Shown: in pieces, positions 35,054 to 40,398 of the stretch
Layout of the letters: every line of letters starts with the position of its first letter
Numbering within the stretch: the first letter of the stretch is position 1
Program-made: the position numbers and the translations under genes
Notes under the pieces: generated by a model
Database searches by the model: none
What the model was told of the DNA's origin: nothing
What the model saw: only the letters and a program-made list of their open reading frames with translations
Assembly: GCF_009649845.1 (NCBI RefSeq)
Contig: NZ_WJIE01000007.1
Location: forward strand, 434,001 to 498,000
Source: Polyangium spumosum
GTDB taxonomy: Bacteria > Myxococcota_A > Polyangia > Polyangiales > Polyangiaceae
DNA length: 64,000 nt
Direction of reading: 5' to 3'

Positions 35054-35812
35054 CTACCGCCGCCACTTCCGGCCGAACAGGAATCGTATCGCGCCGGGCG
35101 CCCGGCGCCGCCAGCTCTTTTCGTCGTGGGCGCCTCGCTTTGCTGCGACGAACTTCAGCGAAGACGCGTCATAACCACGCCGGGCGAATGTCTCCGCCAG
35201 CCGCTCGGCCGCTCGGAGCAGGCCACCGCCCGCCTCCTGCGCGCCCGCGTCGAGGTAGATGCGCGAGGCGCGCGGCCGCGGGTGCCCGTCGAGCCAGCCG
35301 AAAAGCGCACCTTGCCCGATCTGCAACGACGGCGACATGCTCATCACCAGGCCGAATCGATCGGGCGCGCGGTGGTGCACGTAAAGCGCCGCGAGCCCGC
35401 CCATCGAGCTGCCGCCCACGCCCGTGTCGAGAGGATCCGTCGAGACGCCGAAGTGGTGCTCGATATGCGGGCCGAGCCCGCCCCGCATCCAGTCGAGCAA
35501 GAGCTCGAGCCGCCCCGCCCCGCCGTGCGTCGGGAAGGGCGAGAGCTCGTCGATGCGCTCGTGCCCGCCATGATCGATGCCCACGATCACCGGCACCCGC
35601 TCGCCCCGCGCCGCGAGCCGCCCCGCCACCTCGTGCAGGTGCCAGCCGCCGGCGAACGAAGGTTCGTCGTGGAAGAGGTTCTGCCCGTCGAAGAGGTAAA
35701 ACACGGGCGGCTTCGCCGTCCCCCGTCGCGGCGGGACGTATACGCGCACATGACGCGCCGAGAGGCCGGGGACGTGGAACGGACCGAGCAGATGCACGAC
35801 GGGTTCGGACAT
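35054..35812 (-). CDS. Alpha/beta-hydrolase esterase (Fes/IroE-like)
   Basis: 252 residues of the putative-esterase family. An early FYLFDGQNLFHDE motif, the nucleophile elbow GGSSMGG (Ser136) and a late 'AHDEKSW' providing the catalytic His are all visible. Related enzymes hydrolyse enterobactin-type ester siderophores or simple esters; there is no siderophore gene nearby, so the substrate is open. No signal peptide. Start at 35812. It is divergent from the NOS-fusion gene with only ~60 bases between. Confidence 0.82.
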   Translation of the reverse strand: MSEPVVHLLGPFHVPGLSARHVRVYVPPRRGTAKPPVFYLFDGQNLFHDEPSFAGGWHLHEVAGRLAARGERVPVIVGIDHGGHERIDELSPFPTHGGAGRLELLLDWMRGGLGPHIEHHFGVSTDPLDTGVGGSSMGGLAALYVHHRAPDRFGLVMSMSPSLQIGQGALFGWLDGHPRPRASRIYLDAGAQEAGGGLLRAAERLAETFARRGYDASSLKFVAAKRGAHDEKSWRRRAPGAIRFLFGRKWRR

Positions 35813-35871: not shown

Positions 35872-38800
35872 ATGGTAAAACCCGCAATGATGACCCACGA
35901 GATCGAGAGCTTGATTCGCGAGGCCGGGCTGCTGGAGGGCCTCGGGCAGGACGCGGCGGACGCCCTGCTCGAGCGGACCGTCGTCCAGCGCTACGAATCG
36001 GGCGCGCAGATCGTGCGGGAGGGCGAGATCGGGGACGCGGCGTTCGTCCTCGTGGAGGGTATTTGCCAGGTCTTCGGCGCGAGGCCGGGCGGGGGCGTCA
36101 TCCGCCTGGCGCGCCTCGAGCCGGGGGCGCTCTTCGGCGAGCAGGCCCTGCTCGGCCGGGCGGGCGGGCGCAGGGCGGCCACCGTACGCGCGACGGGACC
36201 CGTCGCGGTGGCGCGTATCGCCGCCCAGGATTTCCGTAATGCCCTGCCGCCCGACCACCCCCGCCGCGAGGCCCTCGTGCGCCTCGGCGAGGAGCAGCTC
36301 CGCGATCGGCTCGTGCAGCAATCGAGCCTCTTCCGCACATTACGCGCCCTCGGCGGCGAACACGGCGGCCTCGACGCCGAGCTCGTCACCTACGAGCGCG
36401 GCGAGGCGCTCTTTTATCAGGGCGAGCCCGCCGACGCCGTGTACGTCGTCGTCTCCGGCGCCGTCGGCGTGTATGTCGACAAGGACGGGCGCCCGCAGCT
36501 CCTCACCCGCGTCGAGGCCGGCCATTGTGTCGGCGAGCGAGGCCTCCTGCGCCGCGAGTCCCGCGCGGCCACCGCCGTCGTCGAGGATCCGGTCACGGCC
36601 TTTCGAATCCCGGGGGATCGATTCCTCGCCCTCCTCGAGCGGTCGCCCGAGCTCCGCGAATACCTCGACAGCCTGGAGAGCGTCTACGAGCTGCCCCACC
36701 GCGGCTTCGTCACCATCTTCGCGGGCAGGTTCCTCGGCAAACCCTGCATCACCTCCCTCTACCACCTGCCCCGCGGCCGCCACGCCCTCGCCTCCCACGT
36801 CCCCGGCGAGGAGCTGCACCACCTCACCGTCAGCGAGCCGGGGCTCGAAGGCCCGCACGACGAGCGCGGCAAACACAGGTTCGTCGACGCGCGCCGCGGG
36901 CTCGAGCGCGAGATCGTGGTCACGCCCGACGACGGCCGCATCCTCTCGTTCACCGCCCGCGGCGACTGGGTCGATCTCCCGAAGCTTTATGCCCTCGCCC
37001 TCGAAGGTGGCTCCCTCTCGCCCTGGCAATGCGCCGCGTTCTCCGAGACGGGCTCCATCGACCTCGAATCACCGCCCTCGCTCGTGCCCGACGACGAGAT
37101 CGTCTGCACCTGCCTGCGCGTGCGCAGGCGCGACCTGCGCCGCGCCATCCTCGCCGGCTGCAATACACCCGAGGCGATCCGCGACAAGACCCGCGCCGGC
37201 AGCGCGTGCGGCGCGTGCCTTCCCCGCATCGCCGACATGCTCGGCAAGAGCGCCTGGACCGCGGCCGAGATCGTCTCCACCGTCGACGTTTGCCCCGGCG
37301 TACGCGCCTTCCGCCTCGTCCCCCGGGGCGGCGCGCCGATCCCCGCCGAGCCCGGCCAGCACATCGTCATCCAGGCCGAGATCGACGGGCGCTTCATCGA
37401 GCGACCCTATACCCTCTCGGCGCCCACCACGAGCGGCCATTACGAGATCACCGTCAAGCGCCTCCAGGGCGGCGTGTTCACGACCTGGCTCTTCGAGCGC
37501 CGCCCCGAGGACGCCCTCATCCGCGTCTCCGCGCCCGGGGGCCATTTCACCCTGCCGCGGAACGATCGCCCCGTCGTCTACCTCGTCGCCGGCATCGGCG
37601 TCACGCCCGCGATCGCCGCGGTCCGGGCGATCCGCGAGGAGGGCGCGAGCCGCCGCGTCCACGTCGATTATTCGGCCCACAGCCCCGCGTCGGCTCCTTA
37701 TGCCGACGAGCTCCACGCGCTCGCCGCCGCTTGCCCGAACGTCACGGCGCGTATTCGTTTCACCGAGGTCTGGGGCCGGCTCGGAAAGGACGAGCTCGCC
37801 TCGCTCGTCGAGGCCCACCCCGACGCCGAGTGGTTCCTCTGCGGCCCGATCCCTTATCTGCGCGCGATGAGCCAGCTCCTGCTCGAGCAAGGCGTGCTCG
37901 ACACGCACCTGCACATCGAGGAGTTCATCGCGGGCAGCGTCGTCGTCGCCCAGCCCGGCCGCAGGCCCTCGTTGCTCGCGCCTCCGATGAGCGCTCCGCC
38001 CGTCCCCCTCTCACCCTCGTTCCCCACGAGCCTACTCCCGAAGGCCCCGCCGCCCGTCGCCATCACGTATGCCCCGAGCTCGCCCGCGCGCCCGGCCGCG
38101 CCCGCCGCCGCGGAGAAGCCACGCGCCGAGGGGGGTTGTCCCTTCGCGCACGGCACGCACCGCGAGGATGGCCTCGGCGTCATTCCGCCGATCGTCGCCG
38201 GGCAGGACAGCAGCGTCGCCGAGGAGGCGCGCGCCTACCTCGCCCAGTTTTACCGGGAAAAGGGGGCGCCTCGGGCCTTCGCGGTGCGGTGGGTCGAGGT
38301 CGCGGCCGAGCTCGAGCGCACGGGCACCTACGTCCAGACCTACGACGAGCTCTCCTTCGGCGCCAAGCTCGCCTGGCGCAACTCCACCCGCTGCGTCGGC
38401 CGCCTCTTCTGGTCCGGCCTCGAGGTGCGCGACATGCGCCACCTGAAGGACGAAGACGAGATCCTCTCGGCCCTGGTCGAGCACATCGAGCTCGCCACGC
38501 ACGGGGGAAACCTGCGCGCCATGATGACCGTGCTCGCCCCCGCGGACCGCGCCGGCGAGGGGCCACGCGTGTGGAATGGCCAGCTCCTGCGATATGCGGG
38601 CTACCCGAACCCCGACGGCACCGTGACGGGGGATCCGATGAACGTCGAGCTCACCAGGAAGGCGCTCGAGCTCGGCTGGAAAGGCGGACCACGCACGCGC
38701 TTCGACCTCCTGCCGCTGATCGTAAAACTCCCCGGGCGGGCGCCTCGGTGGAAGGAGATCCCGCGGCGTGTCGTGCGGGAGGTGCCGCTCGTGCACCCCG

Positions 38801-39309
38801 ACCTCCCCTGGTTCGCCTCCCTCGGCTTGAAATGGTACGCGCTGCCGGCCGTCGCCGAGCTCCTGCTCGACCTCGGCGGCGTGAAGTACACGGCCGCGCC
38901 TTTCAACGGCTGGTACATGGCGACCGAGATCGGCGCCCGCAACTTCAGCGATCCGCATCGGTACAACATGCTGCCGGTGATCGCCGACAGGCTCGGCCTC
39001 GACACCCAGCGCGCCTCTTCCTTGTGGCGGGATCGGGCGCAGGTCGAGCTCACGCGCGCCGTCGTGCACTCGTTCGAACGCGCGGGCGTCAAGATCGTCG
39101 ACCACCACACGGCCTCGGAGGACTTCCTGCAGTTCGCGCAGGCCGAAGAGGGCGTGGGGCGCTGCGTGCACATGCGCTGGAGCTGGATCGTCCCGCCCAT
39201 CGGCAGCAGCGCGACGTCCGTCTTCCACATGGACGAGGACCACCACCCCGACATCTCGCTCAAGCCGAACCTCTTCTATCAGCCGAAGCCGTGGGCGACG
39301 CCGGCCTGA
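35872..39309 (+). CDS. nos: Nitric oxide synthase fusion: two cNMP domains - [2Fe-2S] - FAD/NAD reductase - NOS oxygenase
   Basis: 1145 residues. 10-135 and 150-275: cyclic-nucleotide-binding domains, each with a phosphate cassette (FGEQALLGRAGGRRAATV; VGERGLLRRESRAATAV). 280-405: unassigned domain. 409-455: BFD-type iron-sulphur domain with Cys412, 414, 446 and 449 (C-x-C-x31-C-x2-C). 461-690: ferredoxin-NADP reductase-type module with RPYTLS (FAD), AGIGVTP and LCGPIPY (nucleotide). 695-765: Pro-rich linker. 770-1145: NOS oxygenase with heme ligand Cys841 in AWRNSTRCVGR, arginine-binding Glu1019 in WYMATEIG, and WIVPPIGSS near the end. It should make NO from arginine without a separate reductase. 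Related self-sufficient NOS is known from Sorangium cellulosum. The start is uncertain: ATGs at 35872, 35887 and 35890 all lack a clear ribosome-binding site. Confidence 0.95.
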   Translation: MVKPAMMTHEIESLIREAGLLEGLGQDAADALLERTVVQRYESGAQIVREGEIGDAAFVLVEGICQVFGARPGGGVIRLARLEPGALFGEQALLGRAGGRRAATVRATGPVAVARIAAQDFRNALPPDHPRREALVRLGEEQLRDRLVQQSSLFRTLRALGGEHGGLDAELVTYERGEALFYQGEPADAVYVVVSGAVGVYVDKDGRPQLLTRVEAGHCVGERGLLRRESRAATAVVEDPVTAFRIPGDRFLALLERSPELREYLDSLESVYELPHRGFVTIFAGRFLGKPCITSLYHLPRGRHALASHVPGEELHHLTVSEPGLEGPHDERGKHRFVDARRGLEREIVVTPDDGRILSFTARGDWVDLPKLYALALEGGSLSPWQCAAFSETGSIDLESPPSLVPDDEIVCTCLRVRRRDLRRAILAGCNTPEAIRDKTRAGSACGACLPRIADMLGKSAWTAAEIVSTVDVCPGVRAFRLVPRGGAPIPAEPGQHIVIQAEIDGRFIERPYTLSAPTTSGHYEITVKRLQGGVFTTWLFERRPEDALIRVSAPGGHFTLPRNDRPVVYLVAGIGVTPAIAAVRAIREEGASRRVHVDYSAHSPASAPYADELHALAAACPNVTARIRFTEVWGRLGKDELASLVEAHPDAEWFLCGPIPYLRAMSQLLLEQGVLDTHLHIEEFIAGSVVVAQPGRRPSLLAPPMSAPPVPLSPSFPTSLLPKAPPPVAITYAPSSPARPAAPAAAEKPRAEGGCPFAHGTHREDGLGVIPPIVAGQDSSVAEEARAYLAQFYREKGAPRAFAVRWVEVAAELERTGTYVQTYDELSFGAKLAWRNSTRCVGRLFWSGLEVRDMRHLKDEDEILSALVEHIELATHGGNLRAMMTVLAPADRAGEGPRVWNGQLLRYAGYPNPDGTVTGDPMNVELTRKALELGWKGGPRTRFDLLPLIVKLPGRAPRWKEIPRRVVREVPLVHPDLPWFASLGLKWYALPAVAELLLDLGGVKYTAAPFNGWYMATEIGARNFSDPHRYNMLPVIADRLGLDTQRASSLWRDRAQVELTRAVVHSFERAGVKIVDHHTASEDFLQFAQAEEGVGRCVHMRWSWIVPPIGSSATSVFHMDEDHHPDISLKPNLFYQPKPWATPA

Positions 39310-39540: not shown

Positions 39541-40398
39541 ATGGCACCGCACGTCCTGCTCGTCGATGACAGCACCACGGTCCGCATGGTCATCGCCGCA
39601 GAGCTGCGCGAGGCCGGTTTTCGGGTCACGCCCGTGCCCACGCTGGACGCCGCGCGGCGCGCGTTCGCGCAGTACCGCGAGCGAGACCCTTTCCAGCTCG
39701 CCATCCTCGACGTGGTCCTGCCCGACGGCGACGGGATCGACCTGCTCCGCGAAATTCGCCAGGATCCGACGCTCGAGCGCCTGCCCGTCATGATCCTCTC
39801 GGGCGACGCGCGGTTCGGCTCCCGCCTGCGCGGGCTCGGCGTGGGCGCCGACGACTTCCTCGGCAAACCCCACTCGAAATCGTACCTCGTGAGCCGCGCC
39901 CACCTCCTCACCGGCAACACCCAGGCCCCGGCCGCCTCCCGCGCCTTTCGCGTGCTGCTCGTCGACGCCGACGCCGCCCTCCGCGAGGACCTCGCCAAGA
40001 TCCTCCGCATCGGCCACGGCTGCGACGTCATCTCGCTCGACAGCGTCGATCAGGCCGCCCAGCTCCTCGAGGTCGAGGGCGCCAGCGTCGACGGATCCGT
40101 CGTCGACCGCCGGTGTTTCCTCCGCGTCCTCGGCCTCCTGCGCGGCAAGCAGCCGAACGGCGTGCCCATGATCGTGCTCGACGATTCCCCCTCGGCCACC
40201 TGGCCCCCCGCGACCACGGCGAAGCGGAATTCGGCCGTCGCCTCGGCCCTGGTCATGCCCCGCACGATCGACCCGGCCACCGTGGCCGAGGTCATGGCGC
40301 GCAGGCTGGTCGAGGAGGCCCCTCCGTCCGTCTCGTCGAGCGGCAAGCTCCCGATCGACACCATTGACGCTGTGCGTCGGCTCGCGCGAGGGGCCTGA
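39541..40398 (+). CDS. Tandem receiver protein (REC - pseudo-REC)
   Basis: 285 residues. First receiver (1-125) is complete: acidic pair Asp9-Asp10, phospho-acceptor Asp57 in LAILDVVLP, Ser86 and Lys109 (LGKPH). A second receiver-like domain starts near 135 (FRVLLVDADAALRED) but its acidic pocket is altered and the Lys is replaced (MPRTID), so it probably cannot be phosphorylated. No output domain follows. GGAGGT 8 bases before the ATG fixes the start. It sits 231 bases downstream of the NOS fusion and may belong to the same pathway, but no kinase is nearby. Confidence 0.85.
   Translation: MAPHVLLVDDSTTVRMVIAAELREAGFRVTPVPTLDAARRAFAQYRERDPFQLAILDVVLPDGDGIDLLREIRQDPTLERLPVMILSGDARFGSRLRGLGVGADDFLGKPHSKSYLVSRAHLLTGNTQAPAASRAFRVLLVDADAALREDLAKILRIGHGCDVISLDSVDQAAQLLEVEGASVDGSVVDRRCFLRVLGLLRGKQPNGVPMIVLDDSPSATWPPATTAKRNSAVASALVMPRTIDPATVAEVMARRLVEEAPPSVSSSGKLPIDTIDAVRRLARGA

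Follow-up and report, generated by a model that had tools for sequence, protein, structure and literature searches.

Animal nitric oxide synthases (NOS) are regulated by a second messenger, Ca2+/calmodulin. Among the bacterial enzymes, the NOS of Sorangium cellulosum (scNOS) was reportedly the subject of work by Agapie in 2009. A published description covers both scNOS and reversed NOS from the cyanobacteria Microcoleus and Crinalium (PMC3701330). The EF-hands of the Sorangium NOS are already in print: a figure legend in PMC7400543 mentions them. Literature searches returned no NOS carrying cNMP-binding domains, and what is new here is a cNMP version of the scNOS-type enzyme, a variant of that kind and not a copy.

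The DNA analyzed (the window) is a 64,000-nt stretch from the soil bacterium Polyangium spumosum (NZ_WJIE01000007.1, 434,001-498,000, forward strand); coordinates below are window positions. A sequence-only reading had described 35872-39309 as a NOS fused to two cNMP domains and a BFD/FNR reductase, and Pfam matches, an intact ORF and its presence in 6/6 Polyangium genomes bear this out. The order from N- to C-terminus is cNMP, cNMP, X (~130 residues), BFD [2Fe-2S], FAD/NAD(P)H reductase, Pro-rich linker and NOS oxygenase (NOSox):

35054..35812, - strand: putative esterase, divergent; PF00756, E 4.7e-21; beside the NOS in 5/5 other Polyangium loci
35872..39309, + strand: whole NOS ORF, 1145 aa (1139 aa from its probable start at 35890)
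35914..36291, + strand: cNMP-binding domain 1, about residues 15-140 (boundaries approximate), from Pfam and PKA-R/PKG matches
36133..36183, + strand: phosphate-binding cassette 1, FGEQALLGRAGGRRAAT, residues 88-104; core kept in 6/6 Polyangium
36385..36642, + strand: cNMP-binding domain 2, Pfam stretch 172-257
36529..36573, + strand: phosphate-binding cassette 2, VGERGLLRRESRAAT, residues 220-234; R-A-A-T in 4/6 and R-S-A-T in 2/6 Polyangium
36694..37086, + strand: X domain, about residues 275-405; common to cNMP- and EF-type NOS (16-protein alignment)
37099..37242, + strand: BFD-like [2Fe-2S] domain; Pfam Fer2_BFD (PF04324) 410-457, E 2.5e-11; Cys412/414/446/449
37267..37548, + strand: FAD-binding half of the reductase; Pfam FAD_binding_6 466-559, E 5.6e-11; RPYTLS 511-516
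37549..37941, + strand: NAD(P)H-binding reductase half, about residues 560-690, from flavohemoprotein alignment; GIGVTPA 574-580, CGP 657-659
37942..38196, + strand: Pro/Ala-rich linker, residues 691-775, by composition
38209..39294, + strand: NOS oxygenase, residues 780-1141; heme Cys841 and Glu1019, with Val994 where the NO-release gate lies
39541..40398, + strand: response-regulator receiver protein, 231 bp downstream; PF00072, E 7.3e-23; present in 5/5 other Polyangium loci

The 1145-aa translation has its sole stop at the end, and the counted segments of the ORF sequence contain no N. Translation probably begins at the third Met (residue 7, position 35890), giving a protein of about 1139 aa, because the frame in the homologous locus L001 opens just five codons ahead of the equivalent Met. 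Sequencing error or misassembly had been raised as a concern, but a frameshift or misjoin of separate genes was rejected because the six Polyangium genomes carry the identical fusion, with domains in the same order and conserved neighbors. The same genomes dispose of the possibility that the cNMP pair is missing from all homologs. Chance occurrence of the key residues was also rejected, on the Pfam matches, the alignment to 2flq and 1m7v, and the motif positions.

The redox and catalytic parts are of the scNOS type, with an N-terminal [2Fe-2S] and FAD/NAD reductase fused to a C-terminal NOSox. The residues named beforehand, BFD Cys412/414/446/449, heme Cys841 and Glu1019, were all located at their motif positions in the translation, and the four cluster cysteines follow the C-x-C...C-x2-C pattern and are invariant in 16/16 aligned proteins. 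A flavohemoprotein aligns across both reductase halves, although the Pfam search of the protein returned no NAD-binding match despite the GIGVTPA and CGP motifs. The NO_synthase profile (PF02898) matches residues 780-1141 over positions 3-361 of 362 (E 1.3e-146); the proximal heme Cys841 lies within WRNSTRC and the substrate Glu1019 within EIGARN, both aligned to 2flq and 1m7v. By profile, heme Cys and substrate Glu the oxygenase is a member of the NOS family, and synthesis of NO and citrulline from arginine is predicted. Pfam found no flavodoxin in the whole protein and the ORF stops 4 residues past the NOSox match, so there is no C-terminal diflavin reductase. Domain order and cofactor motifs thus support the proposed self-sufficient NOS with an N-terminal electron chain.

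Pfam cNMP_binding (PF00027) matches two stretches of the protein (E 1.2e-41). The phosphate-binding cassette motif is a G-E plus R-x-A core, and both cassettes keep G-E...R-[AS]-A-T in 6/6 Polyangium genomes. Purifying selection on the fusion is strongest in cNMP domain 1 (dN/dS 0.04-0.09, five comparisons), domain 2 is less constrained (0.16-0.25), and the linker is the least conserved segment (0.28-0.35). In sequence searches the pair is closest to PKA-R/PKG-type domains, with the heme regulator DNR also among the matches. Modeled structure was also compared with known cNMP proteins, as suggested in the earlier reading: the 50 Foldseek matches listed for the model of residues 7-276 were PKA regulatory subunits or PKG, a cAMP-independent trypanosome PKA-R among them, but the model is of low confidence and TM-scores were only 0.13-0.40, so Foldseek adds little beyond the sequence evidence. 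This model and one of residues 7-468 were built from four close sequences, with mean pLDDT of 52.0 and 44.7, respectively. One Foldseek match, named just as a sperm axoneme entry, is 9fqr, which the sequence search lists under PKA RI-alpha. The available part of PMC10127613 holds nothing usable on the cassette residues that fix the choice between cAMP and cGMP.

X of the window protein matched no Pfam or NCBIfam family, and across 16 members matches to these collections were sporadic and weak (best E 0.081). X together with BFD matches NirB in 16/16 proteins and X by itself matches no NirB model; hhalign of X against NirB gave a probability of 24% over 35 columns, and 2.6% using four Polyangium sequences alone. 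The NirB likeness therefore appears to be mostly due to the BFD part.

An X-BFD-FNR-NOSox core is found in 6/6 genomes from another genus in the family (g19, taken to be Sorangium) and in four further genomes. Ahead of X these proteins carry a segment without an assigned family, NmrA-like by eye in the g19 proteins, together with EF-hands. Whether the Sorangium-type enzyme shares the cNMP pair had been left open; it does not, as EF-hands are found there in all six g19 genomes, whereas the Polyangium NOS has no EF-hand and carries the cNMP pair instead. The NOSox domains are 57-59% identical to the g19 proteins over 358 columns, and judged by sequence the cores of the two types are of common ancestry. 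With Rhizobium and L046 left out, the NOSox tree gives a reversed-NOS clade of 16 rows (support 97/98) in which the cNMP and EF types are sisters. When every row is kept, the clade also takes in a stand-alone NOS from Rhizobium (17 rows, support 95/91), so its exclusivity is unsure; the sample is without the cyanobacterial reversed NOS. Ca2+ and cNMP sensors therefore share an N-terminal slot in sister clades, and the EF-hands make a regulatory role of that slot more likely.

How might such an enzyme work? We consider the chances evenly balanced that this is a self-sufficient, reversed-order NOS whose electron supply is gated by cyclic nucleotide. Electrons would pass from NAD(P)H through FAD and [2Fe-2S] to heme. 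The cNMP pair would bind cAMP, likelier than cGMP because of the R-[AS]-A cassette core, and the resulting change would be relayed through X, although X is without an assigned fold and the coupling route is therefore guesswork. Tethered by the Pro-rich linker, the [2Fe-2S]/FAD unit might then be freed or docked to reduce the oxygenase heme, functionally resembling the way Ca2+/calmodulin sets the FMN domain of animal NOS free; the model leaves the sign of the effect, activation or inhibition, unpredicted. In favor of gating are the domains themselves, the likeness of the pair to PKA-R/PKG-type domains in sequence and in the low-confidence model, the retention of both cassettes, the constraint on cNMP domain 1, the EF-hands in the same position on the homologous core, the fast-evolving tether between reductase and oxygenase, and 17 matches to class III cyclases (PF00211) in this genome. 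It is weakened by the absence of all 17 from the NOS contig, by the weaker constraint on domain 2 and by the poor structure models. Some CRP-fold domains, moreover, bind nothing or another ligand.

Nucleotide binding is absent in many CRP/FNR-fold domains, and the pair may instead be a structural or dimerization module or a decayed sensor, leaving a constitutive enzyme that answers to arginine, oxygen and NAD(P)H. The faster evolution of cNMP domain 2 would fit this, but 6/6 genomes retain the Glu and the Arg in each cassette and domain 1 is the most constrained segment, and we regard it as unlikely. Less probable still is a sensor of another ligand, either a nucleoside or heme/NO feedback, on the pattern of the trypanosome PKA-R or DNR found among the matches; against it, the Polyangium NOS has the cassette Arg-Ala, and the title of entry 6h4g (an E311A, T318R, V319A mutant of a cAMP-independent PKA-R) suggests that nucleotide choice is influenced by these positions. 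That the pair places the enzyme, for example at a cyclase or signaling complex, without gating catalysis is the account to which we give least credence: the conserved neighbors encode an esterase and a response regulator, not redox partners, as placement might have it, but the cNMP pair is attached to the electron-transfer half of the protein, and the same holds for the EF-hands in the sister enzymes.

Returning to gating, a broader picture is possible, though we lean slightly against it: a one-piece bacterial NOS family with the same electron-transfer engine and an N-terminal slot holding a receptor for Ca2+ (EF-hand, Sorangium-type) or cAMP/cGMP (Polyangium). NO output would be switched directly by cyclic nucleotide, opposite to the NO-to-cGMP direction of animals, possibly with a heme-NO-binding (HNOB) protein of the genome as receiver; the phrase "reverse of the animal order" fairly describes this hypothesis alone. 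If true, this would be natural, direct cyclic-nucleotide control of bacterial NO synthesis and a one-chain template for cAMP-switchable NO production. The sister clades would then form a matched pair, Ca2+ vs. cNMP on the same redox core, which would make second-messenger gating of NOS electron transfer without calmodulin directly testable and would bear on how NO signaling and second messengers came to be linked.

Stand-alone Bacillus/Geobacillus NOS share the NOSox with the Polyangium enzyme but are without reductase or sensor, and have Ile at the NO-release gate in place of Val994. Animal NOS share the NOSox fold, the catalytic residues and a reductase in one chain, yet theirs is a C-terminal FMN/FAD reductase, in contrast to the N-terminal [2Fe-2S]/FAD unit, and a calmodulin-binding helix stands against the fused cNMP domains. 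PKA regulatory subunits and PKG have tandem cNMP domains with similar cassettes, with a kinase as partner where Polyangium has NOS. A precedent for gating is Bd1971 of Bdellovibrio, described in PMC6717892 as a cAMP-activated EAL phosphodiesterase: it too is bacterial and joins a cNMP sensor at the N-terminus to an enzyme at the C-terminus, but has a single sensory domain, not a pair, and a different enzyme. Closest is scNOS, which shares the reversed order, the N-terminal [2Fe-2S]-FAD-NAD reductase, the X domain and the C-terminal NOSox, and has an unassigned segment, by eye NmrA-like, and an EF-hand pair where the Polyangium NOS has its cNMP pair.

The open reading frame at 35872-39309 (+) encodes 1145 amino acids and, as the sequence-only reading had proposed, fuses a nitric oxide synthase (NOS) to two cyclic-nucleotide-binding (cNMP) domains and a BFD/FNR reductase. 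Pfam matches within this one frame are:

Two stretches: cNMP_binding, Pfam E 1.2e-41
Residues 410-457: Fer2_BFD (Pfam)
Residues 466-559: FAD_binding_6 (Pfam)
Residues 780-1141: NO_synthase, the oxygenase domain (NOSox), Pfam E 1.3e-146

The heme Cys841, Glu1019 and BFD Cys412/414/446/449 named in that reading are all confirmed in the sequence, the reductase motifs RPYTLS, GIGVTPA and CGP are present, and a flavohemoprotein alignment covers the reductase (FNR) across its FAD and NAD portions. By domains and motifs, the electron path is complete within one chain. The true start is probably the third Met (window 35890), because the frame of the compared locus L001 opens just five codons before the equivalent Met.

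A search for related loci returned near-full-length homologues from three Polyangium genomes (best segment 86-87% identity), and among 59 relatives examined all six genomes of the genus, the window's own included, carry one NOS each. A misassembly or sequencing artefact joining separate genes is ruled out, since the fusion is co-linear in all six and its neighbours, a divergent esterase and a downstream response regulator, are matched at 5/5 other Polyangium loci. Pairwise dN/dS between the window protein and each of the five others was 0.04-0.09 for cNMP1, 0.16-0.25 for cNMP2, 0.08-0.18 for domain X (the ~130 residues between the cNMP pair and the [2Fe-2S] domain), 0.12-0.25 for BFD, 0.21-0.24 for FNR, 0.28-0.35 for the linker and 0.12-0.16 for NOSox. 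Constraint is strongest on cNMP1; in one of the five comparisons X equals it to two decimals. The fused cNMP-NOS is real and conserved, an enzyme of the Sorangium cellulosum NOS (scNOS) kind with a cNMP pair.

PF02898 was searched in overlapping genome sets and found in 7/59 relatives, 7/377 genomes drawn from the phylum, 11/107 of the family, 15/317 of the class, 1/52 and 2/71 of two other classes, and 6/6 of a second genus of the family, g19, taken to be Sorangium because its proteins match the published scNOS description. Together these sets give 20 NOS loci in 18 distinct genomes. Whether the cNMP pair is general among bacterial NOS had been left as a question; it is kept in all six Polyangium proteins, and these six are the cNMP-type loci of the survey. 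The Sorangium-type enzymes, about which the question was also raised, have none and carry EF-hands instead (6/6 g19 proteins). This EF type, with EF-hands in the same N-terminal slot, accounts for 11 of the 20 loci (g19 has six, G543 two, and G557, G360 and G239 a single one apiece). Among the EF-type proteins scanned with Pfam, EF-hand matches lie above cut-off in L014, L026, L028, L044 and L047, are all below threshold in L045 and are reduced to a single weak match in L017 (E 0.11); L027, L029 and L030 were called from two EF loops by pattern and L018 by eye. By pattern, two EF loops occur in 6/6 g19 proteins and L047, and one each in L017, L044 and L045.

The remaining loci include NOSox alone in G162 and a gene broken by a contig end in G556. 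L018 (G239:C668) has one in-frame TAG breaking the oxygenase frame, either a draft error or a pseudogene. Three NOS genes (L044, L045, L046) occur in G543, a genome of the same class: one of its two EF-type proteins ends in an FHA domain (E 4.4e-14), and L046 is NOSox-flavodoxin-FAD/NAD, its long N-terminus looking globin-like by eye and lacking a Pfam match. The ~190 residues ahead of the EF-hands in L014 and L026 look NmrA/SDR-like by eye; they have no Pfam match, and the PDB entry that comes nearest belongs to the NmrA family (E 0.49). On the Nostoc plasmid pC052_E, typed conjugative, a stand-alone NOSox gene (L020) is flanked by a pair of SDR oxidoreductase genes, beyond which come desaturase and aminotransferase genes, in what looks like a biosynthetic cluster.

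Both types share a reversed order, reductase N-terminal and NOSox C-terminal. The window protein is 57-59% identical to the g19 proteins over NOSox, with values of 38-41% for FNR, 41-45% for BFD and 21-27% for X. With two long rows (Rhizobium and L046) removed, 16 reversed proteins, L018 and the cut G556 gene being omitted, form one NOSox clade (97/98) containing Polyangium (100/100) and the EF type (98/95); in the all-row tree a stand-alone NOS from Rhizobium joins the clade on a long branch, and it may belong there. Polyangium and the EF type are likewise apart (100/100) in the reductase tree, which is unrooted and has long branches that meet. Although g19 and Polyangium belong to one family, the g19 enzyme groups with EF-type NOS of other families, which implies either that an early gene duplication was followed by differential loss or that the gene moved by horizontal transfer.

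Domain X is common to all 16 aligned reversed proteins, with ten invariant columns including W99, W118 and F123 (numbering of the first aligned sequence); that of the window protein has no match in Pfam or NCBIfam. X plus BFD matches NirB in 16/16, mostly through BFD. Profile comparison of X with the NirB segment ahead of BFD gives a probability of 24% over 35 columns, and 2.6% with Polyangium sequences alone. X may be a relic of a NirB-like reductase domain, a suggestive likeness only. L074, a locus elsewhere in the window's genome (G000:C8:102530-104266), and its five counterparts from Polyangium (L071-L073, L075, L076) encode only the FAD/NAD-plus-BFD half of a NirB-type protein, their NirB profile match running as far as position 467-472, approximately, of 794. 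Ahead of BFD they have a segment similar to the tail of X, and the full sequences of L074 and L071 end in a hydrophobic, membrane-like stretch.

The nearest sequences to the cNMP pair are PKG, PKA regulatory subunits and a Toxoplasma protein that has several cNMP-like stretches; CRP-type regulators score lower among the matches listed. Two AlphaFold models, each built on four closely related sequences, were of poor quality (mean pLDDT 44.7 and 52.0), and the best 50 Foldseek rows for the second, low-confidence model were PKA and PKG chains with low TM-scores. The phosphate-binding cassettes are:

Residues 88-104: cassette 1, FGEQALLGRAGGRRAAT
Residues 220-234: cassette 2, VGERGLLRRESRAAT

G-E and R-[AS]-A-T are retained in both cassettes in 6/6 Polyangium genomes, cassette 2 reading R-S-A-T in two of the six. 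In PKA and PKG cassettes the Glu holds the ribose and the Arg the phosphate, and an Ala following the Arg favours cAMP over cGMP. On that basis cAMP is the predicted ligand, as a first guess. A ligand source is likely, given 17 class III cyclase matches (PF00211) in the window's genome, all above cut-off, some partial and none on the NOS contig.

How might such a sensor act? The order is cNMP sensor, X, then [2Fe-2S], and a fast-evolving, Pro-rich tether separates reductase from oxygenase. Nucleotide binding would shift the cNMP pair and X, and this shift would allow or block docking of the [2Fe-2S]/FAD unit onto the oxygenase. We put the chance that a cyclic nucleotide gates the enzyme at about one half. 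That the N-terminal slot would be a regulatory input is argued most strongly, though indirectly, by the sister clade, which has EF-hands there. PMC6717892 describes a bacterial enzyme, Bd1971, switched by a fused cNMP domain.

As to output, Val994 (window 38851-38853) occupies the NO-release gate, at the position of mouse iNOS Val346. Val is found there in 16/16 reversed NOS and in the stand-alone archaeal NOS from Natribaculum, and Ile in Embleya, G162 and the diflavin L046; the gate pattern did not fit Nostoc, Rhizobium or Deinococcus NOS. Ile at this gate slows NO release in bacterial NOS, and because Val replaces it, NO release from the reversed clade may be as rapid as from animal NOS. 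The window's genome has one HNOB protein (290 aa; PF07700 E 1.3e-14; L079:4951-5823, +; G000:C3:298974-299444), a candidate NO receiver, in which a below-cut-off V4R match overlaps HNOB. The usual HNOB motif is YxSxR; this protein has YQSHL where it is expected.

PMC3701330 presents scNOS as the one bacterial NOS so far characterised that has a reductase attached; those of Microcoleus vaginatus and Crinalium epipsammum are named as similar. A figure legend (PMC7400543) gives the reversed order with EF-hand motifs for Microcoleus and Sorangium NOS, and BFD for the latter, so the EF type is already in print as annotation. PMC6104048 describes a globin-NOS whose reductase is C-terminal, and it calls bacterial NOS Ca2+-independent. 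No cNMP-fused NOS was found among the matches listed from open-licence PMC literature. The window oxygenase is nearest in the PDB to bacterial NOS (2flq, E 9.2e-118), with animal NOS next. At the gate, where it has Val994, Bacillus and Geobacillus NOS have Ile. With scNOS the window protein shares the reversed core, bearing a cNMP pair in Polyangium where the Sorangium-type enzyme has EF-hands.
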